A DNA stretch of 21,519 nt from a virus. The stretch is from positions 1-21,519 of IMG/VR virus record IMGVR_UViG_3300035698_012402; one strand, given 5' to 3'. Both the position numbers and the translations under genes were made by a program. The notes beneath the pieces were generated by a model. It was given only the letters and a program-made list of their open reading frames with translations, was not told where the DNA came from and did not search any database. Below, one piece after another: positions 5,441 through 19,985 of the stretch (positions are counted from its first letter, which is position 1; each line of letters opens with the position of its first letter).

Positions 5441-6357
5441 TACGGCTTGCCTCCAGTCGCCTTGTCACCCCGAAACTTCTTGATGCCCATCGTCGGGATG
5501 GATATTTCTTCACGCTGGACGCCTGTTCCATACACATCACGCTTGCCGAGACACTTCTCGCTCGCCCCGTAGTTGACCACGACGCTGGACAGTGTCCGCA
5601 AAACATCTGGAAGGCTTACGAGATGAACTCTCGGAAACTCCAATCCGTCAAGGAAGTCCATGGCGAAAATGCCAAGCTCGAACGCCTGATTGTTGCAGAA
5701 TGAAATGATATCAGGATTGAGCCCAATATCGAAAGCGCTTATCTTCTCGACGAAATCCGGCGTCACATCGCAGGTATCATGCAGGCACACGACATAATCG
5801 ACTTCGTCCATCGACAGACCAATGGGGAGTGCCGTAAGGCCATGATGGTCTTCTGTCGTGTGAAGGAAGGTGACCCCATCGTCGTCATGATAGTCACACG
5901 CGTCAGACTTGGAACCACCGACGGCAACCATCACCCGACTCATGCTGACGTCTGCCTTCTTGAGGGACTTCAGCAGCGGGGGCACCGCTTCCTTCACATA
6001 CCGGACATGGCTCGATATGCGAACGCCCCACCGGTCACCCAGGGCCTTCTCCTCGTGCATGACTGCCCGGACAGTGCCTCTTGGAGAGGAAATGGGAATC
6101 TTGCCTACGGCCCGAACCACGCCATTGTTGATATCCAGCCCGTTGAATGCGTACAGGAAGGAAGAGTCCCCCAGCATGAGCTTCAAAATGCCTTCCCCGG
6201 TCTCCCATAGGTGGCCCGAGGATGTCGTCCCGTCCTCATTCATAACAAAACTCTCCCGGACATTATAGCCGGTGTCCTCAGACATGTTCGACGAAACCAC
6301 CATCGTTTTGCCGACGAAGTCTTCTCTCACAATACTATCTGTAAACGGAAATCTCAT
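5440..6357 (-). CDS. Putative glycosyltransferase-like protein
   Basis: A 305-aa protein overlapping the DUF4031 gene by ATGA and the downstream GT2 gene by one base. Around residues 135-200 it has the layout of a small GT-A fold: MVAVGGSKSD, then VDYVVCLHDTCDVTPDFVEKI where HDTCDV occupies the place of a DxD motif. The first half (strand-rich, GKTMVVSSN..., ALGDRWGVRISSHVRYVKEAVPPLLKSL) also recalls 'multi-target' glycosyltransferase starts. No canonical DxD is certain, so the enzyme class is inferred mostly from neighbours. It may be catalytically diverged. Confidence 0.5.
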   Translation of the reverse strand: MRFPFTDSIVREDFVGKTMVVSSNMSEDTGYNVRESFVMNEDGTTSSGHLWETGEGILKLMLGDSSFLYAFNGLDINNGVVRAVGKIPISSPRGTVRAVMHEEKALGDRWGVRISSHVRYVKEAVPPLLKSLKKADVSMSRVMVAVGGSKSDACDYHDDDGVTFLHTTEDHHGLTALPIGLSMDEVDYVVCLHDTCDVTPDFVEKISAFDIGLNPDIISFCNNQAFELGIFAMDFLDGLEFPRVHLVSLPDVLRTLSSVVVNYGASEKCLGKRDVYGTGVQREEISIPTMGIKKFRGDKATGGKP

Positions 6358-6623
6358 TTCCCACCTCTCGCTTCTCTGATTCTCTGGGCGACAAACCTTG
6401 AATCCACTTCAGTCGCCCCATTGAGTACGACACGCCTTCTTGCATTTCGAGTAAGGTCAAAGTGTACCAAACTTCCACGTTGAAGCCACGATTCTTTTAA
6501 TCCCATTCTTCTACCGAAGTCCAGAAGCTCATCATCGCTGTCCGCGAATAGGTGTGCGACCTCCGTATGCCTCCACTTTTTATTGCTGAGGCACGACATC
6601 ATGCTGTCAACGTAAACGCTCAT
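6354..6623 (-). CDS. DUF4031 protein
   Basis: An 89-aa protein. The pattern SVYVDSM at the start, then KWRHTEVAHLFADSDDELLDFGRRMGL (K-W-H..ADS..EL..FA...GL), ESWLQ and a late LNGATEVDSR match the small DUF4031 family, common in phages and actinobacteria, length 80-100 aa. Its function is unknown. The ATG at 6623 overlaps no other gene; the stop overlaps the next start (ATGA). About 50 bases separate it from the rmlA-like gene; that gap contains nothing I can name beyond a possible 22-codon open frame. Confidence 0.75.
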   Translation of the reverse strand: MSVYVDSMMSCLSNKKWRHTEVAHLFADSDDELLDFGRRMGLKESWLQRGSLVHFDLTRNARRRVVLNGATEVDSRFVAQRIREARGGK

Positions 6624-6674
6624 ATGCCGGTTGAGCCGAAGCCCCCTTCTCCCCTTTTCGTATCCGAAAGCCCA

Positions 6675-7406
6675 TCAGCGTCTCGCCAGTTCATTTGCCT
6701 TGCTCAGGCTCTCGTGGGTTCCGGCATCCGTCCACCATCCCTCCAACTTCACAAACCCCATCTGTCCGACCCTGACATAAGCATTGTTCACATCCGTGAT
6801 TTCCATCTCGCCACGACCACTCGGCTTCAGCGTGCGGATGATGTCAAACACACGGCTGTCATAAAAGTAGATGCCGGTAACAGCGAACCCGCTCGGGGGA
6901 TCATCTGACTTCTCCACGATTTCGAGAATTTTACCTTCCTTCAGCCTCGGAACGCCGAACCGTTCCGGGTCAGTAACTCGTTTAAGAGCTACGAACGCAC
7001 CATTGAACAACCGTTCCGCATACTTCTCCACCAGGGCAGAAAGCGGGTCTTCGAAGATGTTGTCCCCCAACAGAACGCACATGGATTCGCCAGTCCGTAC
7101 AAACCCTTCTGCCAGGGCAAGGGCTTGAGCAATGCCACCGGCGGCTTCCTGAACCTTGAACGTGAATGAACACCCGAAATCTTTGCCGCCACCAAGGAAC
7201 TCAGCGATGCCTCCAAGATGCTCGCCGCCAGTCACCACAAGGATGTCTGTAATACCAGCCCCAACAAGTTGCTCCACGCAGTGCTGAAGCATGGGTTTGT
7301 CTCCCACCGGGAGAAGATGCTTGTTGACAGCACGAGTAAGAGGAAGCAATCTCGTTCCCTTTCCTCCAGCCAATATAACCCCCTTCAGTTGACTTCGTGG
7401 TTTCAC
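6675..7406 (-). CDS. RmlA-like sugar-1-phosphate nucleotidyltransferase (chimeric 5' end)
   Basis: A 243-aa protein with the nucleotidyltransferase signature LAGGKGTRLLPLT (12-24), the substrate lysine region NKHLLPVGDKPM (28-39), the metal Asp in LLGDN (115) and GWWTDAGTHESL near the end. It joins a sugar-1-phosphate to dTTP or another NTP, giving the activated sugar for the neighbouring glycosyltransferases. It is of the short type, about 50 residues less than enterobacterial RmlA. The start is GTG, sharing GTGA with the stop of the homing endonuclease upstream. The first 28 codons are a diverged copy of the 5' remnant at 8256-8348, with more AT-rich codons, so this end probably came in with the endonuclease. 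The original joint lies at 7318-7328. Confidence 0.85.
   Translation of the reverse strand: MKPRSQLKGVILAGGKGTRLLPLTRAVNKHLLPVGDKPMLQHCVEQLVGAGITDILVVTGGEHLGGIAEFLGGGKDFGCSFTFKVQEAAGGIAQALALAEGFVRTGESMCVLLGDNIFEDPLSALVEKYAERLFNGAFVALKRVTDPERFGVPRLKEGKILEIVEKSDDPPSGFAVTGIYFYDSRVFDIIRTLKPSGRGEMEITDVNNAYVRVGQMGFVKLEGWWTDAGTHESLSKANELARR
7318..7328. repeat. 11-bp direct repeat at the endonuclease cassette junction (copy 1)
   Basis: TGCTTGTTGAC here is identical to 8260-8270. Both copies encode the same spot of RmlA (codons for V-N-K-[H/Q]). They bracket a 942-base unit holding the replacement rmlA 5' end plus the LAGLIDADG gene, as expected if the endonuclease cuts or inserted at this site. Confidence 0.6.
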
Positions 7407-8215
7407 GCTGCCTCCTTGAGTTCCTGATACCTACTGTGTTTTCTTTTCAGCTTGTAATCCCCATACGAGTAAAGAAGCTCCATGATTCTCACAACCTGCT
7501 TGTTCCCGACATATCTCAACATGAAATGGTTTTTGCTTCTCTTTTGTCGATACAGTTTCGTCTTCCGAAGTCCAAGGAAGGTAATCAGCTTGTCTTGAAC
7601 ACTCGTAAGCAACTCTTTTGTGCCGACAATTTGGAACACCATCTGCCCTGTTGAATATCTGGTAATCGTCCCGTCGGCTTCAAATAGACCACGAATGAAT
7701 GCACAATGAATTGAGTCAGGCTTGCCCTGAAACATATTCGGGTATGTTTCTGATTGACTCTTGCAAGGGGCTATCCCGGCGTCAATAAGCCATGTGGCCA
7801 ACTCTTTTCTCCTGATGCTCAGTGAAACTTGCCCGTACGAACGACCAGTCTTTTCTAAGTACACTTCTCGTTTTGAAATTGGGCCGTTGAACCCAAATAC
7901 TTCTCTAATGCTGAAAAGCACATCTGCATCTTTTTCTGACAGATAGAACTCCAGCCCCTCTTGCCTCACATTCCCGTCACCAACAATCCAGCCAAGAACC
8001 CAAGCCAAATTGTCATCAAGGATATTTACCCTTTCGCTGTTGAAAGAATACTTAACCCTTGAACCTGAAATCTTCCATTCCCTTTCCCTTCGCTTGAGTC
8101 CCCACTTCCTCATCCAGTAGGAAATGGTGCTTTGGGAAACTCCAATAGCATCAGCAATTTCTACCTGTGACATCTTTTCGCCACGATACATCGCAGCAAC
8201 TTGTTCTTTATTCAT
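7403..8215 (-). CDS. Free-standing LAGLIDADG homing endonuclease with N-terminal HTH
   Basis: A 270-aa protein. I choose ATG 8215 because AAGGAGG lies 8 bases upstream; the frame runs further to a TTG at 8251. Residues 13-42 (MSQVEIADAIGVSQSTISYW) are a helix-turn-helix, which may bind DNA or repress its own gene. Two LAGLIDADG helices follow: WVLGWIVGDG (72-81, Asp 80) and FIRGLFEADG (173-182, Asp 181), both with catalytic acid present, so it should be an active single-chain double-strand nuclease. It sits inside an rmlA gene: a 30-codon rmlA remnant ends 40 bases upstream, and an intact rmlA starts in its stop codon. It is more AT-rich than its neighbours, a sign of lateral transfer. Confidence 0.85.
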   Translation of the reverse strand: MNKEQVAAMYRGEKMSQVEIADAIGVSQSTISYWMRKWGLKRREREWKISGSRVKYSFNSERVNILDDNLAWVLGWIVGDGNVRQEGLEFYLSEKDADVLFSIREVFGFNGPISKREVYLEKTGRSYGQVSLSIRRKELATWLIDAGIAPCKSQSETYPNMFQGKPDSIHCAFIRGLFEADGTITRYSTGQMVFQIVGTKELLTSVQDKLITFLGLRKTKLYRQKRSKNHFMLRYVGNKQVVRIMELLYSYGDYKLKRKHSRYQELKEAA

Positions 8216-8241
8216 CGTTCCATCCTCCTTCACCCAAGGAT

Positions 8242-8259
8242 GGAATATCAAAGAATTAT
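8242..8259 (-). repeat. 18-bp leader motif shared with the other homing endonuclease (copy 1)
   Basis: ATAATTCTTTGATATTCC on the minus strand is identical to 15801-15818. In both places it contains the TAA of the preceding open frame and lies 27-41 bases before a homing endonuclease ATG. It could be a promoter -10 plus initial transcribed region, or the left edge of a mobile cassette. Confidence 0.7.
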
Positions 8260-8282
8260 TGCTTGTTGACTGCTTTGGTCAA
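8255..8282 (-). promoter_or_regulatory. Sigma-70-like promoter for the homing endonuclease
   Basis: On the minus strand TTGACC (8277-8282), 16 bases, then AATAAT (8255-8260), about 40 bases before ATG 8215. It lies inside the rmlA remnant. The second endonuclease (ATG 15760) has TATAAT (15814-15819) in the same position relative to the shared 18-bp motif, though without a good -35. Confidence 0.45.
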
Positions 8283-8348
8283 CGGCATGAGTCTCGTGCC
8301 ATTCCCGCCTGCGAGGATAATACCTTTGATGTTAGAAAATGCTCTCAT
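8256..8348 (-). pseudogene. 5' remnant of rmlA cut off by the endonuclease
   Basis: Thirty codons from ATG 8348 encode an RmlA N-terminus ([20 protein letters not shown] then KAVNKQ) and stop at TAA. It aligns residue for residue with the start of the intact copy downstream ([25 protein letters not shown]), but the DNA differs at many synonymous sites until the last 11 bases, which are identical (8260-8270 and 7318-7328). It starts within the 3' end of the upstream glycosyltransferase gene (17-base overlap), as expected of the original operon layout. It is too short to be an enzyme, so it is the severed beginning of the resident gene. Confidence 0.85.
8260..8270. repeat. 11-bp direct repeat at the endonuclease cassette junction (copy 2)
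   Basis: Identical to 7318-7328; marks the point where the original rmlA was interrupted. Confidence 0.6.
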
Positions 8349-9246
8349 GGTTTTGCAAATGCCTCATTATTCCGCTGTTCATCATTCTCATTTTGAACGC
8401 CGCCACCTCGGTCTCGTTGTCAAAACGATAGTGATGAGCCTTGTTTGAGTTCATCAGCCAATCTGCCGACGCCTTCCTTAAAGTCATCTCGATGGGTTCC
8501 TCAAAAAGGTGATTATGCTCAAACTCCTTTTTGCCCACACGGGACGATCCGCCACCTAGATGAATCATTCTGTCATCATAAATGACGCACATGTGTCGAT
8601 TCATCTCGGGGTCGAAGCCTGACGCCCAAGTCGGACTTGCGCACCGAGTCGGCATAAATCCCTTCATGCAAAGCCCAAGCTCATTCGCCTTCTCGATGAG
8701 CGAAAAGCCCGTATCATCCCCAGTTATGTAAGAGAGCTTGTGGTCTTTCACGAACTCCACATCGACCAACTGGCACGCCACCCATGTGTTCGTCCAATTC
8801 TGTATGTGACGAACACGCCACTCGATGCTGTCCTTGTCCATACGGGGGTCGGGAGGTTCCCACGGCCACAGAATACCAGGAAGTACTATCCCCGCCTTGT
8901 GGAAGTCCCACACGTTAGATAGCCACCCGCCAGCCACCGGGAAGCAATCCGAGTCCAGAGTCAGCACAAGGCCCTTTTCACGCCTCATGACCTCGTCCAG
9001 TAGGAAACCGTGCTTCTTGCTACCCGCGATACCATCCGGGCACCCTACTAACTCCGGGAGTATCTGTAGTCTCTGGCGATGGGCTGCACAACAAATTGCG
9101 GCCTCCTGTAACCCATGTTGGTCGGTATATACCTTAACACCAAATTCTGCCCCCGCGTCATGGCGGCCCAAAGACGACAGGCACGTCCGAAGTACGCGCT
9201 CCGTCCCGGCGGCATAGCAAATGACGACAGTAATCATATCGTTCAT
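8332..9246 (-). CDS. Glycosyltransferase-like protein (paralogue A)
   Basis: A 304-aa protein starting [22 protein letters not shown], with [12 protein letters not shown] (DSD at 98-100) as the metal/nucleotide-sugar motif of a GT-A fold, and later CASPTW...[24 protein letters not shown]. It is clearly a paralogue of the protein at 9533-10483 (shared [27 protein letters not shown].....W..T.VACQL, DDTG..I..A..LG, PTRC.S, NR..CVI). It would add a sugar to an unknown acceptor. The ATG overlaps the upstream stop (ATGA). The Met at residue 4 is an alternative start. Confidence 0.75.
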
Positions 9247-9536
9247 TTCAGGTTCATTGGGATAGCGACGACTTCCGTGGTCACTTCGTATGGAACCATC
9301 TCACAATCTACAAGCCACGCATTCCGAGCCCGATGTGAGTTCTCGAAGTAGTATGGAGCAGGCTGGATATTCGAAGGCTGCCCGCCTACAAAGCTGTCAT
9401 CCGAAAGGATAACCCTTTTTGCCAGAGCGGGGTCATCTACGAAATCGAAATTCGCTGTGTGTTGTGTCTCGAATAATCTTAGGAACTTGCCATCTTTTCG
9501 GCGTCTTGCCAGCAAGCATATTTCTACAGTTTTCAT
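9243..9536 (-). CDS. Unknown 97-aa protein between two glycosyltransferases
   Basis: A small protein I do not recognise (MKTVEICLLARRRKDGKFLRLFE...). It contains a basic N-terminal segment, an acidic middle and a Tyr/Phe-rich part (PAPYYFENSH). Both ends use ATGA overlaps with the flanking paralogous glycosyltransferases, so it is co-translated with them and may serve the same pathway. No catalytic motif is visible. Confidence 0.65.
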   Translation of the reverse strand: MKTVEICLLARRRKDGKFLRLFETQHTANFDFVDDPALAKRVILSDDSFVGGQPSNIQPAPYYFENSHRARNAWLVDCEMVPYEVTTEVVAIPMNLK

Positions 9537-10483
9537 AATCCCGTTCCTCCAATGTTTCTCCCATCATGTCCAAACAAACGACCCATCTTCTCGGCTGCCA
9601 CCTCCTCTTCACGGTCGAACTGATAGCGATACGACTGGTCATCGAGAAGCAGAAACTCAGCCCCCTTCCGATCGAAGATAAGCGGCGTCACCCATGCGAG
9701 TTCTTCGCCGTATGGACGGTCGGCTCCCATCGTTGCCCGACTAAAGCCACCATGATGATATATCTTGTCACCAAATATCACACACGAGTATCGGTTGAAC
9801 TCGGGATTGTGACTCGGGTTGCTATTATGGCTGTGAGCTATACGACAAGCCAAGGGTGGAAATCCAGACACAAACGAACTGCCTTGCACCAGTAGGGACG
9901 GACAGCGTGTCGGCTTGAATCCACCAATCTCCCACCCCAGCCGTCGAGCTTCTTTTATGACAGCCAGTCCCGTATCATCGCCGTCATTGTACTTCTGACC
10001 AAGCTCGATAAAGTCGCTCTTGCGAATCAACTGGCAGGCCACATGAGTTGATTCCCAGCAATGTTGTTCCCGCACGCGCCATTCAATCCATGACTTCTGC
10101 ATGGTCAATGGGGGAGGTGCCCACGGATGTAAGATGCCCGCAATGCGAGCGCCATTCTCCATCATAAACATCAGGTCTTGCAACCAGAAGTCTGCTACGG
10201 GGAAACAGTCCGAGTCCAGAGTCAGGATAAAGTCGTAATCATGTCCGATGCCATAGATAGCCCAGTCCAGAAGAGCACCATGAGCGTGATTATCGCCCTT
10301 GATTTTCGAGTTCTCAAGAAGTGGAAGATCATTGTCCCTCGCAAGGCTGAAAAGGGCCTCGTCCGGCTCTGCTGTCACGAGCCACACCTTATGCGGATGC
10401 CCCGTGTGCCTCTTGATGGAAGACAAACAAGCGTCCAGCATCTTGCCTGTCCCCTTCTGATAACAGATGACGACATTGACCAT
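9533..10483 (-). CDS. Glycosyltransferase-like protein (paralogue B)
   Basis: A 316-aa protein. The start is ATG 10483 (MVNVVICYQKGTGKML), whose A overlaps the previous TGA (TGATG), with GGAAGG upstream; a longer frame exists but has no ribosome site. [16 protein letters not shown] holds the DSD metal motif at 90-92, and WIEWRVREQHCW..THVACQL matches paralogue A. It has about 20 extra residues (LVQGSSFVSGFPPLACRIAH region) compared with the paralogue. A GT-A fold sugar transferase is the best guess; donor and acceptor are unknown. Confidence 0.75.
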   Translation of the reverse strand: MVNVVICYQKGTGKMLDACLSSIKRHTGHPHKVWLVTAEPDEALFSLARDNDLPLLENSKIKGDNHAHGALLDWAIYGIGHDYDFILTLDSDCFPVADFWLQDLMFMMENGARIAGILHPWAPPPLTMQKSWIEWRVREQHCWESTHVACQLIRKSDFIELGQKYNDGDDTGLAVIKEARRLGWEIGGFKPTRCPSLLVQGSSFVSGFPPLACRIAHSHNSNPSHNPEFNRYSCVIFGDKIYHHGGFSRATMGADRPYGEELAWVTPLIFDRKGAEFLLLDDQSYRYQFDREEEVAAEKMGRLFGHDGRNIGGTGL

Positions 10484-10911
10484 CAAGCGCCCTTCCAATC
10501 CATGTTCGCAACGACATCGTCTACCCACGCCTTGATTCCGTCATTGGCCTGCATCCGATACAAGTCGAGGTCGAAATGACGCTCCGTCGGAATAGCTAAG
10601 AACATCTGAGGTTCACGATTTACGGTCTGAAGCTCGCCACGTTCCCACTCCTGACGGGTGGCAAAGAACACACGCCGCCAACTGTCCGCGTCATGAGCGA
10701 TAAGACAAACCTTCCACGGGAGTGCGAAGAGGTCATAGTTGAGCCCAAACGTAATGTCCACCGCCCGGCATGACGGGAAGATATGAGTCGTTCCGTCTGG
10801 CCTAATGGCCTCGGCTCGATACGCTTCTGGTATCGAGCCGGGGACAATAAGCGTCTTGGACACAGATGTCTGTGCCACAGGCGACTGAACTCCTGTCGGA
10901 GTCGTGTCCAT
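10483..10911 (-). CDS. Unknown 142-aa protein
   Basis: I do not recognise this protein. The start is ATG 10911 (MDTTPTGVQSPV), overlapping the previous TGA by one base, with GGAG 6 bases upstream. The first 25 residues are Thr/Ser/Pro-rich; the rest is a mixed soluble domain with several Trp (LPWKVCLIAHDADSWRRVFF). A perfect 10-bp hairpin lies in codons 25-33. It ends with a TGATG joint to the glycosyltransferase, so it belongs to the same operon. Confidence 0.65.
   Translation of the reverse strand: MDTTPTGVQSPVAQTSVSKTLIVPGSIPEAYRAEAIRPDGTTHIFPSCRAVDITFGLNYDLFALPWKVCLIAHDADSWRRVFFATRQEWERGELQTVNREPQMFLAIPTERHFDLDLYRMQANDGIKAWVDDVVANMDWKGA
10813..10839. repeat. Perfect 10-bp inverted repeat, 7-base loop, inside a gene
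   Basis: GGCTCGATAC (10813-10822), loop GCTTCTG, GTATCGAGCC (10830-10839). It lies about 73-99 bases into the 142-aa gene. There is no T-run on either side, so it is not a standard terminator. Confidence 0.7.
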
Positions 10912-11264
10912 CACATCTCCATGACGCCAGTTCCGGTCACCTTCCGAGGAGTTCCATCCAGCTTCTTGTCATCGTAGTAGGCCACAATCCCGGCTCGCTT
11001 GGCCGCCGGTATGATTTCCACGATGCCCGTCGCAATGTCACGCTCAATGTGCGCAACCGAGTCCACTACGGTGAACCCCTTCCGGGCTGCCGGGCCTGAT
11101 CCGCCAAGCATAATGCAGCGGACACCGTCCATCTCACCGGCTTTACGCCGGTCTGTCTCCGGGGCCGGAAGTCCGACCTCGTCGATTTCATACAGGCAAT
11201 CTCCGAATACGTCTTCCCGCGTCTTCGTCTGTGCTCTCAGCAACATTCCCTTTTCCAGCTTCAT
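10911..11264 (-). CDS. Unknown 117-aa protein
   Basis: Begins at ATG 11264 after a strong GAGGAGGAG ribosome site and overlaps the end of the DnaE C-terminal gene by 77 bases. The product (MKLEKGMLLRAQTKTREDVFGDCLYEIDEVG...) has a small beta-rich look: 'G...R......EDVFG.CLYEIDEVGL' followed by 'RKGFTVVDS' recalls phage proteins of the tudor/PUA-like small-barrel kind, but I cannot name a family. Its stop shares TGATG with the next gene. Confidence 0.65.
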   Translation of the reverse strand: MKLEKGMLLRAQTKTREDVFGDCLYEIDEVGLPAPETDRRKAGEMDGVRCIMLGGSGPAARKGFTVVDSVAHIERDIATGIVEIIPAAKRAGIVAYYDDKKLDGTPRKVTGTGVMEM

Positions 11265-12297
11265 TCTTCTCCTCCTCTTGTGTTGATGCTTCTGTAACTA
11301 CATCTATTGTACCCCTGTCATCATAAAAACAGGTCTCAGAAAATGAACTTTCTTCTTGAAAGTGGTCGAGAGGCACAGCCGCCAAAACCTTCTTCCGGCT
11401 TATGGCCTCGAAAAAAGCCTCTTTACCGGCCTGAAATACGAAGAACGTCTGAACGTCAACATCATCCGAGATATCAATGATGTGCATCGAATTGCCAGCC
11501 TTGGACGTGTGCGGCCTGATGTCTACTATCCGTCCAAATATCTTGACCTTCTTGACGGATCCTGCCTCGCCCACAGCCTTCCACTTGTTCTCTCTCATCA
11601 GGTCTCGATACTTCATCATCAGAGGGGGCTTAGACAAACAAAGTCCAGTCACCTCCCGCTCAAAGGCCTCCCACTCGGCATCGGCATAATGCGGGACTTC
11701 CTCGTTTTTCTTCTTTCGGCAGCGATAGTACTCAGCGATGACATCATTCCGACTGCCGAACGAGTCAAGGGCACCCGACTTCACGAGAGCCAAGACCTGC
11801 GTTTTGCTTGGCCTTCGAGAAGACTTTTTGCCCGTCTTGGTCGTTGTCTCTACCTTCACCCTCTCATAGAAGTCCGCCACGCTGAGGAACGGCTGAAAGG
11901 ATGCCACAACGGGCGCTTGTGCCGCCACATACTTGATATGCGCCAGAGAGAACAAAATGTTGCCGTCCTCTATCAAGAAGGTCGTTCCGCTCCTGTTGAC
12001 ATCCGGAGGCTTCACTAGTATCCCGCGCCTGCGAGCGTAGTTGATGTACGAGATGAAGATATCCTTCCCATGCTTCTTCTTTCCCAGCTTCGCATTGTTA
12101 ATGAGGGCCGTCATGTACTCAGGCAGGTAGTGATACTTGAGCCACAGTTCCACCGTTGAAACAGCACTATAAGCCACTGCATGCGAGTTCTTTGACACCA
12201 ACCCTGCCGCAAGAACATAGTTGTGAGTTTTACCTGCCATCCGTAAATTGTATAGTCGCCTACGGTCAACGAACCTCGCTGAGGATACTTTTGGCAC
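11188..12297 (-). CDS. dnaE: DNA polymerase III alpha, C-terminal piece, preceded by split-intein B C-half
   Basis: A 369-aa product. Residues 1-37 are the C-terminal half of split intein B, ending LVSKN before Ser38. From Ser38 it continues DnaE exactly after the conserved GFNK: SHAVAYSAVSTVELWLKYHY..EYMTALI, then the RRRGILVKPPDVN segment, a helix-hairpin-helix region (LALVKSGALDSFG) and an OB-fold (VKIFGRIVDIRPH...MHIIDISDD). It stops after the OB-fold with a charged tail, so the tau-binding tail of some bacterial DnaE proteins may be absent. The start is GTG 12297, inside the last ten codons of the endonuclease gene, with GGAAG upstream, so translation is coupled. It must be spliced in trans to the middle piece to work. 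Confidence 0.93.
   Translation of the reverse strand: MPKVSSARFVDRRRLYNLRMAGKTHNYVLAAGLVSKNSHAVAYSAVSTVELWLKYHYLPEYMTALINNAKLGKKKHGKDIFISYINYARRRGILVKPPDVNRSGTTFLIEDGNILFSLAHIKYVAAQAPVVASFQPFLSVADFYERVKVETTTKTGKKSSRRPSKTQVLALVKSGALDSFGSRNDVIAEYYRCRKKKNEEVPHYADAEWEAFEREVTGLCLSKPPLMMKYRDLMRENKWKAVGEAGSVKKVKIFGRIVDIRPHTSKAGNSMHIIDISDDVDVQTFFVFQAGKEAFFEAISRKKVLAAVPLDHFQEESSFSETCFYDDRGTIDVVTEASTQEEEKNEAGKGNVAESTDEDAGRRIRRLPV
12187..12297 (-). other. Split intein B, C-terminal half (37 aa)
   Basis: MPKVSSARFVDRRRLYNLRM then KTHNYVLAAGLVSKN: a block F (LYNLRMAGKTHNYVLAAGL) and block G ending in Asn37, followed by Ser+1 of the extein. The penultimate residue is Lys instead of the usual His. It pairs with the N-half at 13144-13455 because the flanking exteins (GFNK and SHA) rebuild the invariant GFNKSHA of DnaE. 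Confidence 0.9.
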
Positions 12298-13114
12298 TTT
12301 CCATCTTCCTTCCTATTGATACGGACATTTCACCTCCGTAGGCATAATCCAATATCTTAACCACGTCATCGCTTATGCTGTAATCAACATATGACAAGAA
12401 ATCCGAATCAGATTTCAAACTCGGATTTCTGTATCCCACTCCCAGAATCATTGTCAGATACATCGTCACTTGACCAACCAAGAATGGAGACCCGACAAAG
12501 CGAACACACGGCTGACCAGTTTGACCATGCCTGTATATAGTTCCGTCCCCGTCAATAATTCCCCGAATCAGATAAGGCATCGCCCATTCATCCAGTAGGG
12601 GCATCCATGTTTTTCTTGTCTTGGATTTAACAACGCCATAAGCAGATAAATCGGAATGCATCCGCTCAGACTGGACTGCGATTCTTGCCATTGGGGACGA
12701 CTGATACACCTTACCGTTCAATCCTTTGAACTTTCCCTTTCTAAGAACCAGAATTTTTCTATCTGTTTTCCATTCTCTCTTTACAAACTCAATAATGTTC
12801 TTATCTTCTACGACTAACTGAAGTGCAACTTCTGGTCTCCCATCTGAACGAACCCATCCGCCAGTTACTATCAATCCCAAAACGTATGCCTTCTCGGGCG
12901 TGTCGATTTTCGCAAAATAAAAATGATCGACGCTCGCAGGGCACGTTCCACCGTTTCTTCGACTTACACCAAAACGACGTAGCGTATCATAAACGGTCTT
13001 TGTTGTCTTGAACTTGCCGTCAAGAATATCCAGTATTTCACTTCCCGTTTTTCCCTCGCTATATGCAAAAAGGATTGATCTCTCGTCGTCCGGGGTTATT
13101 TTTCGAGAACCCAT
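12266..13114 (-). CDS. LAGLIDADG homing endonuclease inside split intein B (first catalytic Asp lost)
   Basis: A 282-aa free-standing gene between the two halves of split intein B. The start ATG 13114 has AAAGGAG upstream. An N-terminal helix-turn-helix-like part (residues 8-50) precedes two LAGLIDADG helices: YVLGLIVTGG (77-86) and YLIRGIIDGDG (181-191). Residue 85, normally the Asp of the first motif, is Gly (codon GGC, one base from GAC); Asp190 of the second motif is intact. The protein is thus probably a nickase, inactive, or a maturase-like DNA binder. The last 32 bases overlap the start of the downstream DnaE piece. It is AT-rich compared with the exteins. Confidence 0.88.
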   Translation of the reverse strand: MGSRKITPDDERSILFAYSEGKTGSEILDILDGKFKTTKTVYDTLRRFGVSRRNGGTCPASVDHFYFAKIDTPEKAYVLGLIVTGGWVRSDGRPEVALQLVVEDKNIIEFVKREWKTDRKILVLRKGKFKGLNGKVYQSSPMARIAVQSERMHSDLSAYGVVKSKTRKTWMPLLDEWAMPYLIRGIIDGDGTIYRHGQTGQPCVRFVGSPFLVGQVTMYLTMILGVGYRNPSLKSDSDFLSYVDYSISDDVVKILDYAYGGEMSVSIGRKMESAKSILSEVR

Positions 13115-13140
13115 AATAGTACTCCTTTAACTATTCGTAG

Positions 13141-14799
13141 TCACTGAATACTATCTCGTTTTACTGACACAACGTCAAGCCCTTTTTCCATTATCTCTTC
13201 CATCGTATGCATCTTCCCGTCAGCACAAAGAAACTGATGGTCTCTGCTGCAAACAACTTTTGAACCATCATCAAAGCAAAACTCGTAAGCGTCCATCTCG
13301 CCAGCGTCTATGACCTCAACACATTTGTCTTCAATTCTCTCGTCATCAAAGGCATAAAGCACGACTCCTTCTCTGTTGGAATCGAGACGGTTCTTGACGT
13401 CCGAAACAGAAATTGTCCCACTCGGACTATCGAGCAACGTGTCTACGTCAACACATTTGTTGAAACCATATCTTGCAAAAGCCTCAATCAGTGAGAAAAT
13501 TTGCTCAACTTGTTTTAGAGAAACCTCTCCAGCTTCAATCTTTACCCTTGCTCCATCAAAGAACTTTTGCCTCATTTCGTCCATTACGGACTTAATTTTC
13601 TTCCCCATTCCTTTTCGGAGCCGATTCGCCATGGGGCCGTCAAATCCACAAAGCGCCTTGGAGATATTCATAACCTGCTCTTGGTAAGTCATTACCCCGT
13701 ACGTCTCAGTCATGATGTGCTCGATACACGGGATGGATTCATAAGGCTCGCCATGCTTGCGCCGAGCATACGTCATGTCCATTCCCATATCACGGGGGCC
13801 GGGGCGAATCAGTGATGTGATGGCCGACACGTCAGCAAGGGACTCCATTCCCACGGCTTCCACGACAGGCATCGTTGCCGGATTCTCCAACTGGAAGATT
13901 CCCACAAGGTCTCTCTTGGAGCCCATCTTGATTGCCGTGTGGTCATCAATCGGAATGCTGGCCCTTCTCAACACAACCGACTTCCCGCTCTTATCTCGCC
14001 GATTTTGTTCCACTAGATTCACGCAGTCGGCAATCACGGGGATGTTATTCAGCCCCAGAATATCGAACTTAACGAGTCCCACCGAGCTTAGCTCAGACTT
14101 CTCCTGGCCTTCTGCCCATGCAGAAATGACTTGTCGGTCAACCTTATTGCCGGGCTTGTCCCACAGAACCGGGATGCGGCCCCGGAGACTCCTGTCAGAA
14201 ATGATGACACCGCCCGCATGTTTACCCATGTTCTTAACTTGGTTGCGAAGGATTTCAGCATGATGGCGCACCTTTGGATTATCCTCGAAGTACTTAGCTA
14301 AGTCAGAATAATGCTCGCACAGTTCATCGAAAGGCATGTCGTCAACCTTATGAGACTCACCCTCCTCATCCTCGAACTGGCTGAGGGAGTCAATCTTCTT
14401 GGTGACAGCCATTGCGAGCTTGGTATCTTCTCCCAGCGCACGCGCCACGTCGATGATGACAGCCTTGGTCTTGTACGTCTGATATGTTCCGATGCTGCAT
14501 ACCTTTGTCTCACCAAAAACCCTAACAATGTCTTTCTTTACTTCGTCCCGGATTCGCGGGTCAAAGTCCGTGTCAATATCGGGAGGGTCGGGCCTTCCCT
14601 CGTCAAGGAATCGCTCGAACAACAGACCATATTCAATTGGGTCGATGTCAGTCAGTCCCAAGCAATATGAGACAAGGCTACCCGCCGCCGAATTATGAAC
14701 AGCGAGTCCTTCTGCATTGTATGTATGCCTTCCTTCGACACAAAGGTCGTGAACCTTCCCCTTATGTCGAACTACTCTTACTGCTTTTACCCTTGGCAT
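13141..14799 (-). CDS. dnaE: DNA polymerase III alpha, central catalytic piece, flanked by intein A C-half and intein B N-half
   Basis: A 552-aa product in three parts: intein A C-half (1-36), extein (37-448), intein B N-half (449-552). The extein starts SAAGSLVSYCLGLTDIDPIEY, continues PDPPDIDTDFD with the two catalytic Asp of the DnaE palm, then MGKHAGGVIISD, LVKFDILGLNNI (third catalytic Asp), LIRPGPRDMGMD, YGVMTYQEQVMN and FARYGFNK. These match bacterial replicative DnaE, so the piece holds the whole palm and fingers but cannot act alone. Start ATG 14799 lies 38 bases inside the end of the PD-(D/E)xK endonuclease gene. The last 165 or so extein bases (13456-13620) are clearly more AT-rich than the preceding extein. 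Confidence 0.95.
   Translation of the reverse strand: MPRVKAVRVVRHKGKVHDLCVEGRHTYNAEGLAVHNSAAGSLVSYCLGLTDIDPIEYGLLFERFLDEGRPDPPDIDTDFDPRIRDEVKKDIVRVFGETKVCSIGTYQTYKTKAVIIDVARALGEDTKLAMAVTKKIDSLSQFEDEEGESHKVDDMPFDELCEHYSDLAKYFEDNPKVRHHAEILRNQVKNMGKHAGGVIISDRSLRGRIPVLWDKPGNKVDRQVISAWAEGQEKSELSSVGLVKFDILGLNNIPVIADCVNLVEQNRRDKSGKSVVLRRASIPIDDHTAIKMGSKRDLVGIFQLENPATMPVVEAVGMESLADVSAITSLIRPGPRDMGMDMTYARRKHGEPYESIPCIEHIMTETYGVMTYQEQVMNISKALCGFDGPMANRLRKGMGKKIKSVMDEMRQKFFDGARVKIEAGEVSLKQVEQIFSLIEAFARYGFNKCVDVDTLLDSPSGTISVSDVKNRLDSNREGVVLYAFDDERIEDKCVEVIDAGEMDAYEFCFDDGSKVVCSRDHQFLCADGKMHTMEEIMEKGLDVVSVKRDSIQ
13144..13455 (-). other. Split intein B, N-terminal half (104 aa)
   Basis: Begins with Cys1 right after extein GFNK: CVDVDTLLDSPSGTISVSDV (block A). 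Block B is CSRDHQFL with the conserved His, in a setting (CSxxHxF...GxM) resembling the phage-like gp41-1 group of split inteins. It ends at a TGA 27 bases before the LAGLIDADG gene, at the place where contiguous inteins carry their endonuclease domain. Confidence 0.9.
14692..14799 (-). other. Split intein A, C-terminal half (36 aa)
   Basis: MPRVKAVRVVRHKGKVHDLC (residues 1-20) then block F/G ending LAVHN, with the canonical His-Asn and Ser+1 of SAAGSLVSY. Its partner is 16406-16690; joined exteins give GYGRG-SAAGSL, the invariant GRGS motif of DnaE. Confidence 0.93.
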
Positions 14800-15760
14800 G
14801 TTCTGCTACCTTGCTCTCTGATTCCAATTTATCAATCCAGTCCCCGACACGCTTGCTTTCCTTAAAAATCCCCATCCTCTTCAGGTCTTCCTTGAAGAGA
14901 ATGATATATTCACATAGTCCCTCATAGAATGATTCGGCGGCGACCCTCTTCCTCTCGACCAATCCTATTTTTTGTCGGCCACCTTTTATCTCAACGACGC
15001 TTTTCGTTCCATTCGCCCACTCCACAACAAAATCTGGAAAATAACGGGCAGTCCCTCCACTTGGTTTCGAGTACGGAATTTTGTCAACGCATCTGTCAAA
15101 TGAAACAACATCCTCGCTTCTTCCACACCAGTCCAGAAACATCAACTCCCATGAGCTTGCGAAATAAATCCTAATGTCTCCGCTGATATAATATCCATGA
15201 TGATAACCATGCCCTGTTACTTTTTCTTGATACTCTGGCCTCTCCCAGTTTTTTCTTGAAGCCGCTGCAACTTTCCTTCTGAACTCCGGGTTGTCATGGT
15301 ACGCCCTCTTTAGTCCTGCGGATATTCTCTTTGAAATAGATGGGTCGTTGTTGTGAGCCATTTTCAGTCGTCTTGACATCCTTTTTCTTGCTTGAGGACT
15401 TCCTTGTGAGATTCTTTGTGACTTAGAATTGTTTTCTCTCCATTCATCGGTATATGCGGCTTTTCTTACACATCTTCCGCAAACCTCGTCTCCCCGGTAT
15501 CTCTTGCGAATCCATATATTACTCCAAGGTCCGTGAAAATTCCCTCCGCATAATCGGCATGTCCCTCTTACATCCCACTTCAGTGTCTTCGACTTCGCGT
15601 TTTCAAGCATAACCGAGAATGGAACACTTTTAACCGAGAAGCATGAATATCTGGCCCTTTCTGTGCCATACTGATTCTTCCGCCTCAGAAACTCTTTCTC
15701 TTCAGTATATGGACGAACCCACTCAGGCCAATCCTCTAAATTCCACTTAATTGCGTGCAT
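14762..15760 (-). CDS. PD-(D/E)xK homing endonuclease with zinc finger and NUMOD3-like repeats, inside split intein A
   Basis: I start at ATG 15760 because GGAGG lies 6 bases upstream; an ATG at 15796 has no ribosome site. The 332-aa product has a zinc finger CRLC...CGRC (C68, C71, C94, C97), then repeated basic helices (SKSQRISQGSPQARKRMS and SISKRISAGLKRAYHD, residues 110-180) of the NUMOD3 type that bind the minor groove, then a nuclease core: SSWELMFLDW (Glu205), YFPDFVVEW (Asp243) and VVEIKG (Glu257, Lys259). This is the PD-(D/E)xK fold, related in layout to the Vsr-like endonucleases found in fractured phage genes. It ends 38 bases inside the next DnaE piece. A TATAAT and an 18-bp motif shared with the rmlA endonuclease lie just upstream. 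Confidence 0.85.
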   Translation of the reverse strand: MHAIKWNLEDWPEWVRPYTEEKEFLRRKNQYGTERARYSCFSVKSVPFSVMLENAKSKTLKWDVRGTCRLCGGNFHGPWSNIWIRKRYRGDEVCGRCVRKAAYTDEWRENNSKSQRISQGSPQARKRMSRRLKMAHNNDPSISKRISAGLKRAYHDNPEFRRKVAAASRKNWERPEYQEKVTGHGYHHGYYISGDIRIYFASSWELMFLDWCGRSEDVVSFDRCVDKIPYSKPSGGTARYFPDFVVEWANGTKSVVEIKGGRQKIGLVERKRVAAESFYEGLCEYIILFKEDLKRMGIFKESKRVGDWIDKLESESKVAEHAKGKSSKSSST

Positions 15761-15800
15761 CTCTTCCTCCAATAGTTGTAGCGTACCCTCAACCATAGGA

Positions 15801-15818
15801 GGAATATCAAAGAATTAT
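15801..15818 (-). repeat. 18-bp leader motif shared with the rmlA endonuclease (copy 2)
   Basis: Same 18 bases as 8242-8259. Here it includes the TAA of the MT-A70 gene (15815-15817) and overlaps TATAAT at 15814-15819 on the minus strand, 54 bases before ATG 15760. Confidence 0.7.
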
Positions 15819-16387
15819 ACCTCGTTACCCCACGCTTCCCATCCATCACGACGATTTCTCGCGAACATTTCAAGATACGGCCCCGGAGACACCTTCTCAA
15901 CTAGACTGTAAAAATCCTCCGGTTTCTTACTATGTCGCCCTCTCGGCCAATTAAACCACGTCCCGCCAGTCGCAGGAGCAACTCTCCCGCCCGAGCCAAA
16001 CGGATTCCCTGCTCGTGGCCCCTTGCGGCACAACAGTACGTGCTCTGTATTGCACTGAAAACGCCCAACCCCAAGGCCGGGCTTGCACCACGTCAGCATT
16101 GTAGTTATCTCCTGAAACTCCCATGCCCTTGCTACTGCGAAACCCCAGTCAACGTGCTGCGTCAATACCCAGAGCCAGAGATGACACTGTTTAGCGCTTG
16201 GGGGCTGGATAGAGCATATATCATCAAGAAGCATTGTTGGATAATGCTTTTGTGGCCCGGCTTTGTCGAGTGTCGCACGACGAGGATTGTTGGCATGAAG
16301 AGACGGTCTCCACGGAGGGTCGGCTACAATGCACCGGAAATCACCAAGTTCTGAAAGTCTATCAAGGTTCTCGTTCTCTTCGTTCAT
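15815..16387 (-). CDS. MT-A70-family N6-adenine methyltransferase, inside split intein A
   Basis: A 190-aa protein with the catalytic DPPW at 23-26 (CIVADPPWRP), the WLWVLTQHVDWG core strand-helix, EHVLLCRKG, RGRHSKKPEDFY and the closing PYLEMFARNRRDGWEAWGNEV, all typical of the MT-A70 group. It uses S-adenosylmethionine to methylate adenine N6; for phage members the substrate is most likely DNA. Length is normal, so it is intact. The ATG has GGAGGG upstream and lies 15 bases after the stop of the DnaE N piece. Its place between two halves of one split intein is unusual: the split is normally filled by an endonuclease only. Confidence 0.9.
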   Translation of the reverse strand: MNEENENLDRLSELGDFRCIVADPPWRPSLHANNPRRATLDKAGPQKHYPTMLLDDICSIQPPSAKQCHLWLWVLTQHVDWGFAVARAWEFQEITTMLTWCKPGLGVGRFQCNTEHVLLCRKGPRAGNPFGSGGRVAPATGGTWFNWPRGRHSKKPEDFYSLVEKVSPGPYLEMFARNRRDGWEAWGNEV

Positions 16388-16402
16388 CCTAGTCCCTCCA
16401 TC

Positions 16403-19330
16403 CTATACGACATCAACAAGTTCGTCGTCCTCATTCAAATTCTTCGCCTGCACCCACTTTGTACTTCCGTCTTCGCTTTTGACGAGCCATTTGTGGTCTT
16501 TCGTACACCTAATAACACGGCCATCATCTGTTTCGATTTCAACAAGGTCTTCATCGACATCGTATGAGAATGTGTCCAAAACCCCTAGATAAGAGCCGTC
16601 ATCTGCAACGACGACATCTCCTTTTCTGATATTCCCGATAAATCTGGAAACCCCGTTTGACATAACGACCCGAGTGGATGGATGGAAACACCCACGACCG
16701 TACCCGACAGCCCACTCGCCAAACTTGTCCTTTGCATCAGACACAATTCTGTCCATGATAAGAAAGTAATCGGCCCATCCGAGCTTACAGATGACATCAA
16801 ACTCATAATTGACCCGGTCGAGGTATATCTGAGCATCCTTCCGTACACCAATGCCACGATTTGTGAGACCACGATTGACTTTATTGCGCAACATCTCCGG
16901 GGCGTTGTCGTACAACTTCGGCAACTGGATAGCAGAATCCAGATTGATTTCCTCAGCCTCGACAGCCACGAGCCGAGTATTCGCCAGAGCTTCCTTAAAG
17001 ACCTCCGCTGTGAACACGTCGTCCTCAAATGGCCCACGCTGTGTCGTTACTCCATCCCGACTACGATGGACATAGCCGCCCTTGAAAACCTTTCTCATCT
17101 GAGCCGCGTTCCGGTAGAATAAATTACGGACATCGAACGCCCACACATCCGCCTTCTCTCCGCCTGCTTTTTCGTCATCGGTAGGCTCACCCAAATCAAA
17201 GACGGTCTTGTACTGACGGATGCACATAAGGACATCATGTGTATCGGCATGCTCGGCTTCAAGATAGTGAGAATTATGAACAAGCCTTCCTTCCGAGACA
17301 AAACAATGTCGTCCTTTGACTTGTATGTCATGGACATCTGGAACAACAGACCGCAGGACTTCCTCTAAAGACTTTACCCGAACCAAAACAGCATCTTCCT
17401 CTACTCGATGGAACCAAGCGTCCCGTCTATGGATTTGCTCCCCAACACATGACCATTTCAATTGTTTTGTCTGAGGGCCGCCAATTGATATAACATACTG
17501 TGGTCTTGAAAGATTCCCCGTCCTTTCATCCATCCGTGGCGGTATTCTTTGTATTCCTCCCCAGTATCCGAGCCTCAGTAATGCCTGTTGTACTTGATGT
17601 GCCAAACATTCAGAAGTCGTGGTTAAGGAAAGCCTCCTTCCATTCCATGTCCCGTCTCCGCAAAAAATTCCCTCTAGTAACGACGAAAGCCTGTTATTAT
17701 CAAGGCTTCTCCAGAAGTTCGGAAGATGTTTGTTCTCGCACCCTTTGCCGCACAACTCCTCAAACATAGAAGCAAACCCAAATGAGGTAATCCGAACTTG
17801 TAATCCTTTTCCTTTTTGCTCCGCCTCATTCGGATTGAACCCAAACCTTCTAAAGAACTCAATTATGCGACGACGATATTTCTTTTCATCTTCATGAAGT
17901 CCGAACCCAGTGTTGTATCCTCCCCTATATCCCTCTGCGATATACATCCCCAATACCCAGCACATTTCGCTGTCTATTCCCAGTTCCTCCGGCACAAAAC
18001 ATATCTTATCGGTTCTGGTGGAAACCCACCTCCCCTCTTTCAAGTGACAAGTTTGCTTCTTTTCAAAATACTGACTTGTCAGTAGACTGTCGATTTTACC
18101 AGTTTGCACAGGTCGAGGGACGACGAGCCAATCTCCTTTTTTTAAGTCTTTGGCATGTACCCATTCTCGTTTCCCGCATTCGGAAGAAACGAGAAATGGA
18201 TGGTCCTCTGTGGCTATGATAGCCTGATATTTTGTTCCTGAAATTACCTTATAGGCTTTCTCTCCAACTCGCAATCGCCTCTGGCCAATAGCTTCAACCT
18301 CTGAAAACCGACCATCATCAGTTGCGACCAAGTCTCCAACCTTAATGTCTTTTATTGGTTTGAATGACCCGTCGGACATAATCACTTTAGAGTCTGGGTG
18401 CAGGCAATCGCAAGCCATGATAAGGGGAGCCCCGACCTTCCGGGCGAATTGGATAAGCTTGCGATTGACTTCCTTCTGTCGCTCATACTCGATGATTTGA
18501 AGCTCGACGTAAACCTCGTCGAAGGCATCGGCATAGCACCGATAGATACGCTCCGCTTGTTCCCAGTCATCCCTCATCAGCGCTCGCGGAATCTCGCCGC
18601 CCATACACGCCGTCGTGGCAACAATTCCCGCTCCCCATCGGCGGCACGACCACCACGTTGTCCGGGGTGAGTAGTAGAACCCGCTTATCCATGCGTCATT
18701 GTGGATACGGATGATATTGTCGAAGCCCTTCTTGTTCCGGGCAATGAGGACGAGATGACCGGCAGAACGGCACTTCCTCTTCATTTCAGGGTCGTCCCCC
18801 CGATAGTTCGAGATGTACGCTTCCATCCCGAAGACCGCCTTGATGCCTGCCTTCTTGCATGCGTTGTACTGGCGAATCCATCCTCCTACGCTACCATGAT
18901 TCGTCACACTACAGAACGACCGACGTTGTGCTATCAAAAGCTTGGTCAATTGGGAGACGGTCCCGAGTGCATCCTTGATGGAGAACTCGTCATGGTGATG
19001 AAGCCCGACATAACTGTCAGCCGTAGCTGCAACAGCCCGGTCACGAAACTTCCATGCCCACTCGGCACTATGTGTCCACGGAAACTTCTTCGGGTATGGA
19101 CACTTGCCTACCTGTAGTACGAACTTCGGACTGGCAGCGCATATCTCAGGTAGCATCTGGACTGTTGTTTTTGGCCACGTCACCGCCGTCTCAAAGGGGG
19201 AAAGGCCAAGACTCACGGCTACGGGAGCAGCATCGAAGTCCTTATCCGGCACCACCAAAAGGATGTCCTTCTCAAGTGGTATTCGGTCGTCCTTGGGAAC
19301 TTCGTTCTTTTCGTAAAACTCTTTCAGCAT
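16403..19330 (-). CDS. dnaE: DNA polymerase III alpha, N-terminal piece with one whole intein and intein A N-half
   Basis: I start at ATG 19330 (AGGAG 5 bases upstream); the frame is open further up but without a ribosome site. The 975-aa product is: extein 1-308, intein 309-686, extein 687-880, intein A N-half 881-975. The first 105 extein residues are an extension I cannot place. Then comes the PHP domain: YVGLHHHDEFS (H111, H113), SVTNHGSVGG (usually TDHG, here Asn144), KKAGIKAVFGMEAYI, ACD-SHYLEAEHADTHDVLMCI after splicing, and GWADYFLIMDRIV...VGYGRG. After removal of both inteins 502 extein residues remain. It overlaps the upstream gene by 59 bases. PHP proofreading activity is uncertain because of the Asp to Asn change. 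Confidence 0.93.
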   Translation of the reverse strand: MLKEFYEKNEVPKDDRIPLEKDILLVVPDKDFDAAPVAVSLGLSPFETAVTWPKTTVQMLPEICAASPKFVLQVGKCPYPKKFPWTHSAEWAWKFRDRAVAATADSYVGLHHHDEFSIKDALGTVSQLTKLLIAQRRSFCSVTNHGSVGGWIRQYNACKKAGIKAVFGMEAYISNYRGDDPEMKRKCRSAGHLVLIARNKKGFDNIIRIHNDAWISGFYYSPRTTWWSCRRWGAGIVATTACMGGEIPRALMRDDWEQAERIYRCYADAFDEVYVELQIIEYERQKEVNRKLIQFARKVGAPLIMACDCLHPDSKVIMSDGSFKPIKDIKVGDLVATDDGRFSEVEAIGQRRLRVGEKAYKVISGTKYQAIIATEDHPFLVSSECGKREWVHAKDLKKGDWLVVPRPVQTGKIDSLLTSQYFEKKQTCHLKEGRWVSTRTDKICFVPEELGIDSEMCWVLGMYIAEGYRGGYNTGFGLHEDEKKYRRRIIEFFRRFGFNPNEAEQKGKGLQVRITSFGFASMFEELCGKGCENKHLPNFWRSLDNNRLSSLLEGIFCGDGTWNGRRLSLTTTSECLAHQVQQALLRLGYWGGIQRIPPRMDERTGNLSRPQYVISIGGPQTKQLKWSCVGEQIHRRDAWFHRVEEDAVLVRVKSLEEVLRSVVPDVHDIQVKGRHCFVSEGRLVHNSHYLEAEHADTHDVLMCIRQYKTVFDLGEPTDDEKAGGEKADVWAFDVRNLFYRNAAQMRKVFKGGYVHRSRDGVTTQRGPFEDDVFTAEVFKEALANTRLVAVEAEEINLDSAIQLPKLYDNAPEMLRNKVNRGLTNRGIGVRKDAQIYLDRVNYEFDVICKLGWADYFLIMDRIVSDAKDKFGEWAVGYGRGCFHPSTRVVMSNGVSRFIGNIRKGDVVVADDGSYLGVLDTFSYDVDEDLVEIETDDGRVIRCTKDHKWLVKSEDGSTKWVQAKNLNEDDELVDVV
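16406..16690 (-). other. Split intein A, N-terminal half (95 aa)
   Basis: Starts at Cys1 after extein VGYGRG: CFHPSTRVVMSNG (block A), RKGDVVVADDG, block B IRCTKDHKWLV with the conserved Thr and His, and a closing AKNLNEDDELVDVV, which recalls the end of the NrdJ-1 split intein N-half. With the 36-aa C-half the intein totals 131 aa, a mini-intein size. Confidence 0.93.
17273..18406 (-). other. Contiguous LAGLIDADG intein in the DnaE PHP domain (378 aa)
   Basis: Cys1 (CLHPDSKVIMSDG, codon 18404-18406) to Asn (LVHN, codon 17273-17275), followed by Ser+1. Block A includes IKVGDLVATDDG; block B is IIATEDHPFLV; the endonuclease helices are WVLGMYIAEG and LLEGIFCGDG, both with an acidic residue; block F is VHDIQVKGRHCFVSEG. 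The insertion point rebuilds ACDSHYL, matching the TND-x-HYL motif of DnaE. It should self-splice and its nuclease looks intact. Base composition is more AT-rich than the exteins. Confidence 0.95.
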
Positions 19331-19985
19331 GGTCGCTCCTGTACCCCCTATTATACCGAAACCGGGGAACCTCTCGACCCGCAAACTTCGATAAATCTTC
19401 CAGACCGACAATCCATCTACCACCTATGAGCCGGTAGAAGTGCATAAATGCTACTGATCCGGGTAAATACTGTGACGCCAACACCACATCAACGTATCTT
19501 GAGCTACACCTGGAAGCCTCGCTGAACACGGGTGTGTTGTGGAATCTCACCATTGCGGTCGTTGCCGCATACAGCTTAGCCGACAATGGTTCGGTAGGGA
19601 AGTACCGGTCAACCTTACTGCAATCGACCATGAAAGAAGACGTGCCATTCCGAACAACCACCTTGCCATAAAACGGAGAGGCGGTAGACTTCATTACCTC
19701 ATTCAGGACCGGCTGTCCCGCCGCCACAAGGTGAGCCATCCTTCCGAGCGGGTCTCCCTCGCCCATCTTCTCATCAAAGGACTGAAATTCGCCATCGGCC
19801 TCATCAGTATTCGGATCACATGGGAACAACCTGTTCGGCCTTCCTCTCCGGTTCGTACGAACCGAATCTAGCCCTTCCTTGGAGATAATCCAAGGAAGGG
19901 CATAGACTTCATCATGTGGCTTGCCCTGACAAACCTTTCTCAGCGTGTCAGGCTGTTGTGCTGACTCACCGCAGACGAATATCAC
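19272..19985 (-). CDS. Unknown 237-aa protein
   Basis: I do not recognise this protein. The start is GTG 19985, immediately after the TAA of the ParB-like gene (ATGTAAGTG), with AAGG about 9 bases upstream. It has no transmembrane segment; a central part (GKVVVRNGTSSFMVDCSKVDRYF) and a late YRLIGGRWIVGLEDLSKFAG look like folded alpha/beta modules. A perfect 12-bp hairpin lies in codons 29-39. The last 59 bases overlap the DnaE N piece, suggesting coupled translation with the polymerase, but a functional link is only inferred. Confidence 0.65.
   Translation of the reverse strand: MIFVCGESAQQPDTLRKVCQGKPHDEVYALPWIISKEGLDSVRTNRRGRPNRLFPCDPNTDEADGEFQSFDEKMGEGDPLGRMAHLVAAGQPVLNEVMKSTASPFYGKVVVRNGTSSFMVDCSKVDRYFPTEPLSAKLYAATTAMVRFHNTPVFSEASRCSSRYVDVVLASQYLPGSVAFMHFYRLIGGRWIVGLEDLSKFAGREVPRFRYNRGYRSDHAERVLRKERSSQGRPNTT
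19871..19901. repeat. Perfect 12-bp inverted repeat, 7-base loop, inside a gene
   Basis: GCCCTTCCTTGG (19871-19882), loop AGATAAT, CCAAGGAAGGGC (19890-19901). It lies 85-115 bases into the 237-aa gene and has no T-run, so it is not a typical terminator. Confidence 0.8.

Follow-up and report, generated by a model that had tools for sequence, protein, structure and literature searches.

How might a phage assemble its replicative DNA polymerase when the gene for it is divided into three? The question is raised by IMG/VR record IMGVR_UViG_3300035698_012402, a linear viral record of 21,519 bases that represents a fragment of one phage genome and is referred to here, at its full length, as the window. 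In the window, consecutive parts of a family C polymerase (DnaE) are encoded by three minus-strand genes, dnaE-N, dnaE-M and dnaE-C (Table 1), and each of the two gaps between them holds a nuclease-like gene, E1 in gap 1 and E2 in gap 2. An earlier inspection of the sequence (the original prediction) had proposed that the three products are joined by two split inteins, with one whole intein in addition, and had considered this arrangement uncommon or undescribed. The nuclease-like genes and a methyltransferase gene in the gaps were not part of that prediction. Our analysis favors, with a probability of about 0.86, tandem protein trans-splicing of a phage replicative DnaE that two distinct split inteins have fractured. 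DnaE genes with more than one such fracture recur among phages, and the window is one case of them.

A polymerase in three pieces

Taking the inteins out in silico leaves exteins of 308 + 194 (= 502), 412 and 332 amino acids (aa), that is, a product of 1246 aa when counted from the ATG at 19330; a GTG at 19423, upstream in the same open frame, is an alternative start. The spliced product aligns co-linearly with Thermus aquaticus (Taq) DnaE 2hpi (E=1.7e-125, residues 107-334 and 450-1066), and the alignment passes through both split junctions and the junction of the continuous (cis) intein with no gap there. The domains of the joined product follow each other in the order PHP, DNA_pol3_alpha, finger and HhH/HHH_6 (Pfam, NCBIfam). 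DNA_pol3_alpha is itself cut between dnaE-N and dnaE-M, model positions 2-66 and 66-260 flanking junction 1. The three catalytic Asp residues, in PDIDTD and (K)FDILGL, are present, aligned with those of Taq DnaE and kept in relatives. Judged by its sequence, the joined locus encodes one phage replicative DnaE of the DNA polymerase III alpha type, with a predicted polymerase function.

The inteins are inserted at GYGRG/S (split 1), YGFNK/S (split 2) and MACD/S (continuous), where the slash marks the insertion point. At site 1, the Cys codon of the N-half (16690-16688) comes right after GYGRG, and the C-half ends in VHN at 14692, with SAAGSL running from 14691. At site 2, the Cys at 13455 comes right after GFNK, and the C-half ends in SKN at 12187, with SHAVAY running from 12186. 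The original prediction had thus placed the junctions correctly to the base, and its three pieces with two split inteins and a whole one are supported by profile hidden Markov models (HMMs), domain searches and alignment; the contiguous 1246-aa DnaE with its catalytic Asp residues passed the end-to-end check against 2hpi. The HMMs, trained solely on intein halves of other phages, were run against the window translated in six frames (all 617 segments). The four halves were the clear best hits (site-1 N 1.7e-27, site-1 C 1.1e-17, site-2 N 9.5e-13, site-2 C 2.7e-8), the cis intein coming second for the site-1 models. Since models trained on foreign sequences recover them in this way, the halves are not a product of chance.

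Both split inteins display class 1 features distributed over separate open reading frames (ORFs): C..TKDH..HDL..VHN/S in split 1 (Cys1, block B TxxH, block F Asp, Ser+1) and C..SRDH..SKN/S in split 2 (Cys1, block B SxxH, terminal Asn, Ser+1). The two are mutually unlike (26-30%) and each resembles the same-site alleles of other phages, as would be expected if cross-splicing must be avoided. Compared with relatives, the split-1 halves are 44-64% identical, E1 46-54% and the DnaE extein 59-72%. These parts have therefore been diverging at broadly similar rates, which suggests that the intein halves are maintained.

In the mechanism we propose, each of the three dnaE segments would give rise to its own protein, and the three are probably expressed as one operon. 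The spacing of the genes is as expected for an operon: 15 nucleotides (nt) separate the stop of dnaE-N from the start of an MT-A70-type methyltransferase gene, E1 and dnaE-M overlap by 38 nt, and E2 and dnaE-C by 32 nt. Counts of terminators between the dnaE pieces in the window were no different from the shuffle level. Split intein 1 would then join N to M at GYGRG/SAAGSL and split intein 2 would join M to C at YGFNK/SHAVAY, while the continuous intein would excise itself from piece N. Class 1 chemistry is expected (N-S shift at Cys1, transesterification by Ser+1, cyclisation of the terminal Asn), and its outcome would be the 1246-aa polymerase. The breaks would have originated by homing, through insertion of split-intein/nuclease modules, in which free-standing endonuclease genes sit between the intein halves, into an essential gene, at conserved motifs of the active site.

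Table 1. Features of the dnaE locus in the window
Feature	Position	Strand	Description	Match
dnaE-N	16403..19330	(-)	N-terminal extension, PHP domain, palm start, cis intein, split-1 N-half	PHP 7.8e-30; DNA_pol3_alpha 2.4e-7; Intein_splicing 9.8e-20 (Pfam)
Extein 1a	18407..19330	(-)	308 aa	
Continuous (cis) intein	17273..18406	(-)	378 aa, Cys1 ... HN/S, inserted at MACD/SHYL	LAGLIDADG_3 2.8e-10
Extein 1b	16691..17272	(-)	194 aa, C-terminal end GYGRG	
Split intein 1, N-half	16406..16690	(-)	95 aa (CFHPSTRVVMSNG..), then stop	TIGR01445 intein_Nterm 2.6e-11, residues 912-980
Methyltransferase ORF	15815..16387	(-)	MT-A70 type (DPPW motif), passenger of gap 1	PF05063 4e-14
E1	14762..15796	(-)	putative homing endonuclease, 344 aa, PD-(D/E)XK-like C-terminal domain	
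dnaE-M	13141..14799	(-)	split-1 C-half, palm/fingers extein, split-2 N-half	DNA_pol3_alpha 7.1e-46; DNA_pol3_finger 3.5e-39
Split intein 1, C-half	14692..14799	(-)	36 aa (MPRVKAVRV..GLAVHN)	Intein_splicing 4.1e-6
Extein 2	13456..14691	(-)	412 aa, SAAGSL..YGFNK, with catalytic Asp motifs PDIDTD and FDILGL	
Split intein 2, N-half	13144..13455	(-)	104 aa (CVDVDTLL..), then stop	TIGR01445 0.0026, below cut-off
E2	12266..13114	(-)	helix-turn-helix (HTH) and LAGLIDADG endonuclease-like ORF in gap 2	phrog_4645 5.1e-32
dnaE-C	11188..12297	(-)	split-2 C-half and C-terminal DnaE (HhH and beyond)	HHH_6 1.5e-12
Split intein 2, C-half	12187..12297	(-)	37 aa (..YNLRMAGKTHNYVLAAGLVSKN)	
Extein 3	11188..12186	(-)	332 aa plus stop	

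Proposed trans-splicing and its alternatives

Given the class 1 residues and the need for a working polymerase, the halves very probably splice in trans. Several observations weigh against this reading. The record is only a genome fragment, piece C starts with a GTG codon that lies within the end of the E2 ORF, and the N-half of split 2 scores under the curated NCBIfam cut-off. In the C-half of split 2, block F reads YNL where its alleles have YDL, and the terminal Asn is preceded by Lys (SKN) in place of Ser or His. Nearly all split-2 alleles have Asp in block F and end in SN or HN, residues that are usual, not strictly required, and the penultimate Lys is found also in L179, one of the other viral contigs analyzed (these carry L numbers). 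These substitutions make the splicing efficiency of split 2 the weakest point of the scheme.

If one or both split inteins, most likely split 2, no longer spliced, the pieces might instead assemble non-covalently into a working DnaE. Besides the odd C-half of split 2, such a route is shown to be possible by DnaE genes that are broken without any intein after an ERFL..R motif (L006, L126, L140, L141, L143), though those breaks gain other segments: they carry tails or repeated segments and lack intein halves at that break. In the window, on the other hand, an intein half terminates every break, Cys1 and terminal Asn are present, and the insertion point is exact and conserved; the breaks fall within the palm (GRG/SAAG) and within YGFNK/SHA, motifs that could hardly be left as chain ends. 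We therefore consider non-covalent assembly unlikely.

It is far less probable still that dnaE, being fractured, is decaying as a pseudogene while the phage uses the polymerase of its host. The endonuclease motif of E2 has already decayed and the record is incomplete, but all three extein parts are open, the catalytic Asp motifs are kept and the parts share 48-72% identity with those of the nearest relative. Moreover, the records of the relatives (113-202 kb) contain one dnaE locus each and no family A or B polymerase, so that the phage can be expected to need a working product. An intact dnaE elsewhere in the genome, which according to the original prediction would refute it, could be looked for in these relatives, where a single locus is present; the window's own record is a 21.5-kb fragment. 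Finally, the metagenomic origin of the contig might raise the suspicion that the breaks are an assembly or sequencing artefact such as a chimera or frameshifts. This we regard as scarcely credible, since the genes in the gaps are complete and have start sites of their own, the gap-1 order of N-half, E1 and C-half is repeated in L005 and L044, and the double split is seen again in independent assemblies. Trans-splicing through two split inteins is thus the reading that we retain.

Relatives, recurrence and known systems

In the extein tree the window DnaE falls in a well-supported clade of 13 phages, and the presence and absence of the inteins among relatives can be followed to the exact insertion point. 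Both split sites and the cis site are empty in L007, L023, L125 and L129, in which DnaE is unbroken. The sister of the window, L003, has site 1 and the cis site empty and a continuous intein at site 2. Between L005 and L023, whose DNA is about 80-84% identical, the difference at site 1 is a 1343-bp insertion in L005 (8658-10000) that consists of exactly the N-half, an E1 homologue and the C-half; L005 also has a cis intein at IFG/CEL. L044 combines a split site 1 with a cis intein at LRKA/C and a continuous site 2, and L127 has a split intein at an additional site, TYQEQ/C. Such mixed states indicate that each element is gained and lost independently of the others, in the manner of homing elements. 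Among cultured phages, continuous inteins are found at site 1 in Bacillus phage G and Lactococcus phage 949 and at site 2 in Rhodococcus phages Trina and Weasels2. No relatives were found in bacterial genomes.

Scans for occupied sites 1 and 2, followed by a systematic search for ORFs ending in an N-half and starting with a C-half, identified at least 13 other viral contigs with two or three split inteins in dnaE, so that the arrangement is less rare than the original prediction had supposed. Two are present in L158, L162, L167, L170, L179, L202, L207, L208, L216 and L222, and three, corresponding to four or more pieces, in L169, L218 and L221. The exact two sites of the window are also split in L158, L162, L167, L170 and L221. 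The state with both sites split requires at least seven changes on the extein tree, a quick tree with open forks on which gain and loss are indistinguishable. Some further loci deserve mention. There is an apparent frameshift directly after the last C-half in L169, and L161:4685-13111 is a single open DnaE frame of 2809 aa with about five continuous inteins. Intein-free breaks just after ERFL..R occur in L014, L015 and L019 as well as in the five contigs named above; a new segment with a repeated S-SL..LGI..DP motif opens the second gene, and the whole looks like a two-subunit DnaE. Our first impression that the breaks in L006 and L126 were inteins was dropped, since intein halves are absent.

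As to its kind, the locus belongs with split inteins, fractured genes and the split DnaE of cyanobacteria. Like the fractured genes of Dassa et al. 2009, it is a phage gene of DNA synthesis that a split intein interrupts, the two halves being separated by a free-standing endonuclease gene; both gaps in this conserved enzyme gene have that form. Those fractured genes reportedly have one break (two pieces) per gene, and about half of the loci are said to contain a Vsr-like endonuclease, which does not define the kind. The window differs in its two breaks plus a continuous intein and apparently in its nucleases, E1 (TnsA-like/PD-(D/E)XK in appearance) and E2 (LAGLIDADG), which seem to be outside the Vsr-like family.

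In cyanobacterial DnaE (Ssp, Npu), a split intein likewise joins two polypeptides of the same host protein at nearly the same motif. However, it is inserted at Y/CFNKSH, four residues before site 2 of the window (YGFNK/SHA), and its halves are far apart in the genome with no nuclease gene, whereas those of the window flank nuclease genes. A split intein at the cyanobacterial insertion point was observed in L140 (2077-3840, 6321-7331; QAKY/SFNMPHS, terminal Gln); its gap contains a nuclease and three other ORFs, and the gene for N-terminal DnaE lies downstream. The dnaE of Trichodesmium erythraeum, said by Liu and Yang 2003 to be split and to hold several inteins, resembles the window in combining a split intein with continuous ones in one DnaE, but is not known to have more than one trans-splicing joint, where the window would have two.

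Another phage replicative polymerase, the PolB of the Pseudomonas jumbo phage MIJ3, has a putative split intein with an endonuclease ORF between the halves (PMC6892783); compared with the window it is a PolB with one break and an HNH nuclease. Joining three segments by two orthogonal split inteins has been engineered as tandem protein trans-splicing (PMC12707363), of which the window locus and its relatives would be natural examples. The literature searched, which did not cover Dassa et al. 2009, contained no account of a natural gene with two split inteins; in that literature tandem trans-splicing appears solely as protein engineering, and its probable natural occurrence in one polymerase is a variant that we did not find described. 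If the joints work, these phages would use tandem trans-splicing in nature to build what is apparently their sole replicative polymerase out of three or four proteins. They would also provide natural sets of split inteins, under the constraint of mutual orthogonality within one cell, that are useful as tools.

Nuclease genes at the two sites

Site 2 of other phages offers a view of how a continuous intein might become a split one. Five long continuous site-2 inteins of 371-430 aa (L003:11216-12496, L044:10395-11666, L199:5112-6350, L203:6816-8105, L215:1530-2642) have no recognised in-frame endonuclease. Overprinted across the middle of all five, each time at offset 2, is a gene for a conserved Vsr-like nuclease (about 300-380 aa). 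The intein frame contains 0 stops in the 299-366 overlap codons, against means of 11-21 in synonymous permutations, which never gave zero in 5000 draws. The Vsr-like family is present in site-2 gaps of relatives, and at the split site-2 loci that carry it the offset is 1 (10 of 10). Nuclease remnants in the overprinted frame are seen in three more kinds of continuous site-2 intein. The loci are related to varying degrees, so that 18 loci do not amount to 18 independent observations; L162 (split) and L217 (cis with a remnant), however, differ in state despite being close neighbors on the tree. It is tempting to suggest, and we lean slightly toward this view, that the reading frame of the site-2 nuclease decides between a continuous and a split intein, that overprinting is a stepping stone from mini-intein to split intein and that repeats of this process lead to multiply fractured polymerases such as that of the window. 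This side result may be newer than the main finding. As relatives show the same sites empty, occupied by a continuous or overprinted intein, or split, the origin of split inteins becomes directly testable.

As for the nucleases of the window, we infer that such enzymes drove the insertions. E1 has orthologues (46-54% identity) in the same gap of L005 and L044, from which the methyltransferase ORF is missing, and a PDF..V(E)IKG-type (PD..ExK) motif is conserved across the three. In the AlphaFold model of E1 (mean predicted local distance difference test score 56), the C-terminal domain alone is usable. Its residues 206-313 match TnsA at the edge of significance (Z 8.1, root-mean-square deviation 4.0, 108 aligned), and Foldseek with the E1 model gave nothing below 1e-3. 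From this model E1 looks like a TnsA-like/PD-(D/E)XK-like nuclease and is plausibly active as an endonuclease; it was not assigned to the I-Bth0305I family, for which the structure match had a Z of only 6.0. E2 has probably decayed as a homing endonuclease, judging by its motif 1 (VLGLIVTGG), from which the catalytic acid is lost; motif 2 is intact. A pattern scan with narrow patterns found no E2 homologues in viral contigs. No Rfam family of group I or other catalytic introns reached the gathering threshold in the window, L003, L005, L006 or L044.

A second HTH LAGLIDADG nuclease (phrog_4645), 25% identical to E2 and with an intact motif 1, is encoded at 7403-8251 (-) of the window among sugar-related genes. 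According to their translations, these belong to a cluster of glycosyltransferase-like and nucleotidyltransferase-like ORFs (4217-10528, (-)) beside the phage replication region, and include a sugar nucleotidyltransferase-like ORF at 6675-7406.

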